A stretch of DNA of 64,000 nucleotides. Origin: Bacteroidales bacterium (GTDB lineage Bacteria > Bacteroidota > Bacteroidia > Bacteroidales > 4484-276). Below are positions 20,783 to 44,401 of the stretch, one piece after another. Under the pieces are notes generated by a model. The model was not told the origin of the DNA, made no database searches, and saw nothing but the letters and a program-made list of their open reading frames with translations. Positions within the stretch are counted from its first letter, which is position 1; each line of letters opens with the position of its first letter. The stretch is from NCBI GenBank assembly GCA_035647615.1, contig DASRND010000035.1, forward strand, positions 1-64,000. Reading direction: 5' to 3'. Both the position numbers and the translations under genes were made by a program.

Positions 20783-21041
20783 TCAGAGATGAGAGGGGAG
20801 ATGTGAGAGATGAGAGGGGAGAAGTGAGAGATGAGAGGTGAGAAAAGGGAAGTAGTAAGGAGTAGATAGAAATTGGAAGGCACTTGTAGAAAAGACCATT
20901 AAAACCCATCCCTTGTTCCTTTTACGCGTCGGTGGCGTTTATTGTGGTTATTAAAAATTAGCGGAAATTCGCTCCATTGGCGGTAATTCGCGGACGGTGG
21001 TTTTATCAAAGTATTCATTTAATTGGCGGGAATTCGCGGAC
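20783..21041. repeat. 21-bp purine-rich tandem repeat and a 20-bp direct repeat
   Basis: The gap between purL and tRNA-Thr holds three tandem units of TGAGAGATGAGAGGGGAGA type (20783-20845, about 21-bp period). It also holds two copies of ATTGGCGG(T/G)AATTCGCGGAC (20976-20995, 21022-21041), spaced 46 bases apart with one mismatch. A related GTGAGCGATGAGAGGTGAGA occurs at about 38373. No gene is seen here. Confidence 0.6.
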
Positions 21042-21098
21042 TATTCATTTATCCTTTTATAAAATCCTACATTTTTGAGTGGGCAAAAGGAAAAGTTC

Positions 21099-21530: not shown

Positions 21531-22006
21531 AGTCACCCGGTGAATGCTGTCTGAGCGTGGAACAAAATCCCAAACCTCCATCGGCTCGCCTGGCGATATT
21601 CACGGCGTGACTTTTCATTTCCGGCGGCAGTCACACCGTGAATGCTGTCCGAGCATAGAACAAAATTCCAAACCTTTATCCGCTCGCCTGGCGTTAATCA
21701 CCGGGTGACTTATCCTCCAGGCGTTAGTCACTTCGTGAATGCTGTCCGAGCATAGAACAATATTCCAAACCTTTATCCGCTCGCCTGGCGTTATTCACGG
21801 TGTGACTTTTCAGTTTCCGGCGGCAGTCATACCGTGAATGCTGCCTGAGCATGGAACATTATTCCAAACCTTTTTCCGCTCGCCTGGCGTTATTCACGGC
21901 GTGACTTTTCAAATTCCAAACGGTAGTCACCCCGTGAATCATGTCTGAACCTGAAACAGCTACTTTTATCTGCATACCAACCGCCCGGAGTTATTCACGG
22001 GGTGAC
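21531..22006. repeat. array of five 82-bp palindromic elements
   Basis: Five tandem units at 21531-21612, 21629-21710, 21726-21807, 21825-21906 and 21925-22006. Each is exactly 82 bp, separated by 15-18 bp linkers of which three begin TTTCA (period 97-100). Each unit starts AGTCAC-N3-GTGAAT (the fourth AGTCAT) and ends AATCAC/ATTCAC-N3-GTGACT. The two ends are inverted repeats, and each end is itself a small TCAC-N3-GTGA palindrome. Inside, CGAGC pairs with GCTCG, leaving a loop rich in AACA..TTCCAAACCTT, so each unit can fold into one long hairpin. Units 1-4 are close relatives; unit 5 differs in the centre. A sixth copy is at 44320. No ORF explains it. Function unknown. Confidence 0.85.
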
Positions 22007-22017
22007 TTTCCGTCGAT

Positions 22018-26724: not shown

Positions 26725-26804
26725 ACTATTATGTTGTTCCAAAACCATGATTGTTAACAAGCTTTGTGATTATATTTCCCTGGGCTGGTTTGGTTTGGTT
26801 TCGG

Positions 26805-27112
26805 CTTGGTTCGACTTGGTTCGACTTGGTTCGACTTGGTTCGACTTGGTTCGACTTGGTTCGACTTGGTTCGACTTGGTTCGACTTGGTTCGACTACGC
26901 TCACCAACCGACGCTCACCAACCGACGCTCACCAACCGACGCTCACCAACCGACGCTCACCAACCGACGCTCGCCAGCCGACGCTCACCAGCCGACGCTG
27001 GCTTCGACAGGCTGACTTCGACAAGCTCAGCCACCGCAGCCACCAGATCCACAACAGTCACCGGACTTCAACTACGCTGGTTTCGACTACGCTCAACCAC
27101 CGCAGTCACCGG
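26805..27112. repeat. expanded TTCGAC-phrase array (decamers then 14-mers)
   Basis: Eight perfect tandem decamers TCGACTTGGT run from 26811 to 26890. They are followed by seven tandem 14-mers CGCTCACCAACCGA (26898-26995; the last two carry A-to-G changes) and then dispersed TTCGACAGGCT / TTCGACAAGCTCAGCCACC phrases up to about 27112. All six frames are partly open through it and give low-complexity peptides; none looks like a gene. The 622-base gap 26611-27232 holds nothing else apart from the -7 box. Confidence 0.85.
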
Positions 27113-31092: not shown

Positions 31093-31653
31093 TCAGTAGG
31101 TTTTCCAGATAAAGTCCACTTTAATTACATCAATCACCGATTCTAAATCGGCATAATTCCTTGCACTTGAATAAAGATAGTCTTCGGGCTTTACGACAAT
31201 CCCACTCTTAACCGGATTGTTATGGATATAGTTAACCTTCTGTTCGATGAACTTTTGACTATAAATCAGCTCAGCGTGGTTTTCGTGTGTCCATATTTGA
31301 TTTTCCTGATTGCTCTTTAGCATGCCGTGATATGCAAAAACTACCCTCAACCAATCTCTTCGGCTTTCGCTACCATTTTCAATAAAATCAATGAACTGCC
31401 TACTCGTGAATCTTTTAAAATCTCTGATAATACCACTCAGGTCATCATTTTCACTTTGCGCTAAAAGATGCATATGATTCGACATGATCACATAAGCAAA
31501 AAGGTTAAGTCCTTTTTTCTCTTGACAAAATTTCAGGCTATCAATTACAATGTCACGATAGACTTTACGTGTAAAAAGATCAACCCAACCGACAATTTGA
31601 AATGTAAGAAAGTAGGTTTTATTCTGGTCTGATATCCTGTAACCTGAAGACAT
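31093..31653 (-). CDS. REP-associated tyrosine transposase (RAYT, Y1_Tnp family)
   Basis: 186-residue single-domain HUH nuclease related to IS200 TnpA. The metal-binding HUH pair is H60/H62 in MSNHMHLLAQ. The likely nucleophile is Y142 in the KVNYIHNNPVKSG motif that marks RAYTs. RAYTs cut and join single-stranded REP hairpins and are usually single-copy domesticated genes. This one lies between two intact REP modules on one side and three on the other. No terminal inverted repeats or second transposase gene are seen, so it is probably not an autonomous insertion sequence. Confidence 0.9.
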   Translation of the reverse strand: MSSGYRISDQNKTYFLTFQIVGWVDLFTRKVYRDIVIDSLKFCQEKKGLNLFAYVIMSNHMHLLAQSENDDLSGIIRDFKRFTSRQFIDFIENGSESRRDWLRVVFAYHGMLKSNQENQIWTHENHAELIYSQKFIEQKVNYIHNNPVKSGIVVKPEDYLYSSARNYADLESVIDVIKVDFIWKTY

Positions 31654-44319: not shown

Positions 44320-44401
44320 AGTCACACCGTGAATGCTGTCTGAGCCTGAAACAGTATTTTGAATATCGGTGCACCGGCCTGGTATGATTCACGGTGTGAC
44401 T
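44320..44401. repeat. sixth copy of the 82-bp palindromic element
   Basis: A solitary copy 22 kb from the array. It is again exactly 82 bp, starts AGTCAC-ACC-GTGAAT and ends ATTCAC-GGT-GTGACT, with fully complementary 15-base ends. The linker before it (CATTTCCTGCATC) resembles array linkers (CATTTCCGGCGGC), and the base run after it (TTTCGGG) begins like them. The centre is closest to array unit 5 (TGTCTGAxCCTGAAACAG). Confidence 0.85.

Follow-up and report, generated by a model that had tools for sequence, protein, structure and literature searches.

Palindrome-ended intergenic doublets of a Bacteroidales genome are best explained as REPIN-like elements without GTAG

Introduction

RAYTs, relatives of the IS200/IS605 transposases, are single-strand nucleases of the HUH/Y1 type, and TnpA_REP of E. 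coli processes single-stranded REP hairpins (PMC6006769, PMC8266576). Canonical REPs carry GTAG or CGTC tags (PMC3733652). In Pseudomonas fluorescens SBW25, REPINs are inverted doublets with a fixed spacing of 71 bp (Bertels and Rainey 2011, PMC3116915). According to the main text of a 2018 survey, RAYTs of Bacteroidetes adjoin "atypical secondary structures" that lack the GTAG guide and were detected by manual inspection only; in particular, the TnpA_REP genes of the Bacteroidetes subclass 2.6 are flanked by atypical structures that lack GT[AG]G and have copies elsewhere in the genome (PMC6006769).

Here we describe a repeat family of a Bacteroidales genome that is real and well defined, and that is best explained as a REPIN-like element, lacking GTAG, of a Bacteroidota RAYT. 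It belongs to the known REPIN/RAYT system as a Bacteroidota variant and is not an element of an unknown kind. As far as we have checked against the main text of the survey, what is new is the definition at the base level and a possible relation of the units, as permuted hairpins, to the palindromes found by related RAYT genes; the exact motif may already stand in the repeat table of the same survey (PMC6006769). The base-level definition covers the end module, the near-fixed length, the co-varying triplets, the arrays, the RAYT in two genera and the wider occurrence in Bacteroidota. This provides a concrete candidate pair of enzyme and substrate for asking by what means a RAYT selects DNA when GTAG is missing, and RAYT-linked units would explain a class of intergenic repeats in Bacteroidota genomes.

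The units resemble the REPINs of SBW25 (PMC3116915) in several respects: both are intergenic and consist of a short palindromic module present twice, in inverted orientation, at a fixed spacing, both can be drawn as one long hairpin or two small ones, and both occur in tandem clusters that take in the flanks, including clusters that adjoin the cognate RAYT. Unlike in SBW25, the module, AGTCAC-N3-GTGAAT, contains no GTAG, its own palindrome is limited to 4+4 bp with a variable triplet at the centre, and the copies number tens, not hundreds; no excision was seen. The GT[AG]G (or CGTC) foot of canonical REPs is absent, as only AG is invariant and the base preceding it may be C, T, A or G, mostly C. 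An earlier note on this DNA had stated that the repeat was not REP as known. This is correct in that canonical GTAG is missing, but the units are REPIN-like.

Another likeness is to the TIR families of TIRYT genes, which are RAYT-like and lie between inverted repeats that bear no relation to GTAG REPs (Di Nocera 2013, PMC3733652). Some of these families, like the units, are self-complementary and repeated in dimers or clusters. The main text of that paper contains no Bacteroidetes TIR family with the unit motif, and the string GTCAC is absent from it.

The array and its units

The window is a stretch of 64,000 nucleotides from contig C35 of a 3.75-Mb draft genome, whose relatives and gene content point to Bacteroidota. 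Its array of five units, head to tail, lies 3' of tRNA-Val and the terminator of this tRNA, and the next gene after the array is on the opposite strand (Table 1). Unit lengths in the array were counted from A to T, ends included. The length of exactly 82 bp that had been ascribed to all five units applies to units 1-4, unit 5 being one base pair longer. The left ends have the form AGTCAC-N3-GTGAAT and the right ends the inverted form ATTCAC-N3-GTGACT. The inverted ends described earlier, each a TCAC-N3-GTGA palindrome, were found in all five units, with deviations in unit 4, which starts with TCAT, and unit 2, which ends with AATCAC. On the other hand, the inner CGAGC/GCTCG arms, present in units 1-4, are confined to these and are no trait of the wider repeat family. 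An isolated sixth unit of the window had been missed by the earlier note.

Table 1. Positions of the units and spacers in the window.
Feature	Position	Strand	Sequence
Unit 1, 82 bp	21531..21612	+	AGTCACCCGGTGAAT ... ATTCACGGCGTGACT
Spacer, units 1/2	21613..21628	.	
Unit 2, 82 bp	21629..21710	+	
Spacer, units 2/3	21711..21725	.	
Unit 3, 82 bp	21726..21807	+	
Spacer, units 3/4, near-copy of spacer 1 (units 1/2)	21808..21824	.	
Unit 4, 82 bp	21825..21906	+	
Spacer, units 4/5	21907..21924	.	
Unit 5, 83 bp, diverged; sole array unit with fully complementary end triplets	21925..22007	+	
Sixth unit, isolated, 82 bp, perfect 15-bp inverted ends	44320..44401	+	

The spacers are 15-18 bp long. Units 1-4 are 84-93% identical among themselves, and unit 5 is only ~65-69% identical to them. 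In the array, TRF reported a period of 99 with 4.2 copies (score 539), and also a double period of 196 bp. Since spacers 1 and 3 are nearly alike and the double period is present, units 1-4 look tandem-duplicated. Unit 5 looks older than the duplicated units or separate from them.

In another part of the window (26795-26999), we observed adjoining short tandem arrays of TTGGTTCGAC (10 copies) and ACGCTCACCAACCG (7.4 copies), with 96-97% matches. An ORF product beside the units on contig C4, SPTNAHQPTLTNQRS, resembles that of these tandem arrays, which may be dispersed.

A dispersed intergenic family

The exact paired-end pattern occurs as 30 doublets in this genome and not once when the pattern is reversed, which excludes chance. 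With few mismatches allowed, we gathered 42 units genome-wide, and most exact end modules of the genome are paired as doublets at 79-81 bp. All of the ~40 copies lie between genes; the only credible gene overlapped is the RAYT gene described below, over ~12 bp of its 3' end. Measured from GTCAC to GTGAC, the length is 79-81 bp in 41 of the 42 units and 83 bp in the remaining one. The A preceding and the T following the unit are invariant (42/42), and T-rich bases follow the right end. The genes around the copies have random orientation, some copies being located between divergent genes. Clusters were found on contigs C2, C3, C4, C8 and C13 in addition to the window, and in all 15 neighbouring pairs the units are arranged head to tail, with a gap of 15-20 bp from GTGAC to GTCAC.

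In isolated 80-bp copies, the ends are 89% identical and the interiors only 56%, so that length, being nearly fixed, is far better conserved than sequence. The suggestion of the earlier note that length is under constraint is supported by the ~40 copies, which are scattered over the genome and measure 79-81 bp although their interiors have diverged. The variation seen is also of the kind expected for a constrained structure: within the genome the length stays near-fixed, and paired changes occur.

Covariation of the end triplets

All ten N3 triplets of the array are as listed earlier, and within units only unit 5 has a complementary pair; the other big array, on contig C2, has none. Outside these two arrays, 16 of 28 copies have fully complementary end triplets, with 6.0 expected by shuffling (P 5e-5), as do 23 of 40 foreign copies, with 7.2 expected by shuffling, an excess inflated by common ancestry, as the shuffling of triplets ignores relatedness. 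The matched triplets are varied, namely CCC, ACC, GCC and CCG in this genome and GGT, GGG and others elsewhere. The covariation looked for among the copies is therefore present in isolated and foreign units and absent within the two big arrays. A proposal of unequal exchange between neighbouring units was not supported: the left and right triplets fit in two of four neighbouring pairs (one of four in the other direction), which says little, since four of the 25 possible left/right combinations in the array fit anyway.

The RAYT gene enclosed by units

On contig C2, a 208-aa ORF (C2:82207-82830) has five units to one side of it and four and a half to the opposite side; spacer sequences are common to both arrays. 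The product has the HuH motif NHFH and the Y motif YIHQNP at a distance of 100. It matches the NCBIfam family REP_Tyr_transpos ("REP-associated tyrosine transposase") with E 4e-15 and Pfam Y1_Tnp with E 0.008, both below the curated cut-offs, and the PDB structure of TnpA_REP, 4er8, with E 0.003. The Pfam Y1_Tnp search of the genome yielded five other Y1 proteins, none with a doublet within 1.5 kb, and missed the C2 RAYT because its score is below the threshold. A 186-aa Y1_Tnp protein is encoded in the window itself (31096-31653, minus strand), with HuH NHMH and Y motif YIHNNP; it belongs to a different branch from the C2 RAYT, and no doublet was found within 1.5 kb of it.

As described in the main text of the survey (PMC6006769), TnpA_REP subclass 2.6 (RAYT group 5) shares with the C2 system the occurrence in Bacteroidetes, the Y motif YIH[QN]NP and the presence of copies elsewhere in the genome, and the repeats beside its genes, similar to the units, are weak palindromes without GT[AG]G. 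Of the protein features, only the Y motif fits: the HuH motif is NHFH and not NH[LIV]H, there is no W[Q] motif, and the HuH-Y distance of 100 compares with a median of 82. The main text of the survey presents the subclass 2.6 repeats without sequences or doublet structure. Subclass 2.4 (RAYT group 4) resembles the C2 RAYT in its HuH motif, NH[IFV]H (PMC6006769), and relatives of the C2 RAYT have a further likeness to it in hairpins in frame between HuH and Y. Unlike the C2 system, however, it has REPs with GT[AG]G feet and the Y motif YIxNNP (PMC6006769).

Units and RAYTs in other genomes

G010, a genome from a different genus within the same family, encodes a RAYT 65% identical to that on C2, and this RAYT is also enclosed by units with the same ends. 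These units measure 78 bp and are 91 bp apart; 29 such doublets are present in the genome. In the RAYT tree, the two proteins are sisters with support 99/91; grouping by palindrome type was not significant except for the pair G000/G010.

Beyond this genome, 38 stretches contain the doublet pattern; the doublets in them are 71-84 bp long, mostly 78-81. The hosts are mostly Bacteroidales, Marinilabiliales, Saprospiraceae, Ignavibacteriales and Chlorobi, in addition to two Acidobacteria and one Vogelbacteria. Of 18 doublet genomes, seven encode a RAYT (E <= 1e-30), compared to four among the 295 genomes of a sample spread evenly over the class, the two samples differing in make-up; this enrichment lends support to the RAYT link. 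Three genomes of the same genus without a close RAYT have three, one and zero exact doublets, compared to 30 here, but these are drafts, 83-94% complete, so absence is uncertain. Doublets are also present in some genomes, all of them drafts, in which no close RAYT was detected, e.g. G001, G002, the two Acidobacteria and the Vogelbacteria genome.

In the sister species (G002), the tRNA-Thr/tRNA-Val locus is 91% identical and no unit is nearby, which means that the array is lineage-specific. Beyond the tRNA terminator, the G002 sequence is unrelated to the window, and therefore the exact empty site cannot be drawn. A similar comparison using the gene beside a unit on contig C7 yielded no ortholog.

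Origin of the units

The units are very probably REPIN-like non-autonomous doublets mobilised in trans by the C2 RAYT, the array having expanded through tandem duplication. A non-autonomous element had been one of the earlier suggestions, and it is supported by the dispersed copies and by their counterparts on both sides of the RAYT gene. MITEs, too, are small, have terminal inverted repeats and are dispersed between genes, and the units could have been derived from a conventional DDE insertion sequence, with a double-strand transposase acting on the 15-bp terminal inverted repeats; in SZUA-534, doublets do lie inside longer inverted repeats, TGTCCAAAAA..TTTTTGGACA. Still, 18 isolated copies showed no excess of matching flanks at any offset tested, and this lack of target-site duplications fits mobilisation by a RAYT and speaks against a DDE transposase. 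Moreover, no autonomous element with these ends was seen, the RAYT being the only transposase-like gene to adjoin unit ends among the loci read in this draft genome, and the ends are themselves palindromic and set at a nearly fixed length. This makes a DDE origin very unlikely.

Structured RNAs, considered in the earlier note, or transcription terminators could be formed by the long hairpin with the T-rich right flank, and the hairpin predicted for the plus strand of the array units is indeed strong (z ~-2.8 to -4.2). However, folding has no strand preference, the plus strand folding better in 22 of 42 units (mean -30.0 vs -29.6 kcal/mol), the interior pairing is not conserved, the units have no Rfam match, and a scan found no terminator-like site at their ends. 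Given also the random gene orientation, with some copies between divergent genes, a function as RNA or terminator is hardly tenable as their explanation. To regard the units as a chromosomal protein-binding array, with the TCAC-N3-GTGA palindromes as operators and the distance set by DNA looping, would account for palindromic half-sites at near-fixed distance, and, as E. coli REPs bind host proteins (references within PMC6006769), such a role could be secondary. As the origin of the units it is scarcely credible: the fixed length varies by genus (78 in G010 and 82 here), the copy number follows the presence of the RAYT, units are absent at the orthologous locus of the sister species, and the triplets co-vary between the two ends of a unit, for which an operator would have no need.

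Two other kinds of repeat were rejected on anatomy. In a CRISPR array, the direct repeats, 24-48 bp long, would be identical and the spacers unique; here the repeats are diverged and dispersed as single copies, and the spacers are partly shared. The anatomy of integron attC sites does not match either, and no attC boxes were seen by eye.

Each unit is a doublet of the short inverted palindromic module at a near-fixed distance. If the units are mobilised by the RAYT, the inverted end modules could, in the single-stranded form, pair together or form small hairpins; the RAYT would hold these modules, cut the doublet and move or copy it in trans as a single-stranded DNA hairpin, and the fixed length would reflect both ends being held by one RAYT complex. 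The array of the window would then be a passive target population, founded when at least one unit entered the gap between tRNA-Val and the gene that follows; units 1-4 would subsequently have multiplied through tandem duplication of unit and spacer.

The RAYT genes of four other genomes (G033, G036, G030 and G007) are flanked by hairpins like ATTCAC-nnn-GTGACT-(3 nt)-AGTCAC-nnn-GTGAAT, and may carry such hairpins in frame. In the genome studied here and in G010, the loop of the RAYT-side hairpin appears enlarged to 13-18 nt, being equal to the array spacer, and relative to this hairpin the dispersed unit spans from loop to loop, AGTCAC...GTGACT. The dispersed unit could thus be a circular permutation of the hairpin beside the transposase gene, a relation that we regard as rather doubtful. 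If true, this group of RAYTs would cut at or near the apex of the hairpin and not at the GTAG foot, and the delimitation of the element by apex cutting would be new for RAYTs.

Other repeats

At the position of the array, the sister species has a different intergenic repeat, GTCCGCGAATTACCGCCAATTAGGCGAATTA.., of ~85 bp in tandem (G002 L197:1816-2050). Related GCGAATT/AATTCGC motifs are present in the window at ~20955-21045, just upstream of the tRNAs.

The SZUA-534 doublets situated within longer inverted repeats were observed in six stretches (L081, L083, L089, L095, L097 and L112) and may be carried by a larger mobile element. In G030 (UBA12394), there are ~15 near-identical 69-bp doublets, AGTCACGGGGTGACT..AGTCACCCCGTGACT (e.g. 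G030:C7:22345-22413), a sign of recent amplification.
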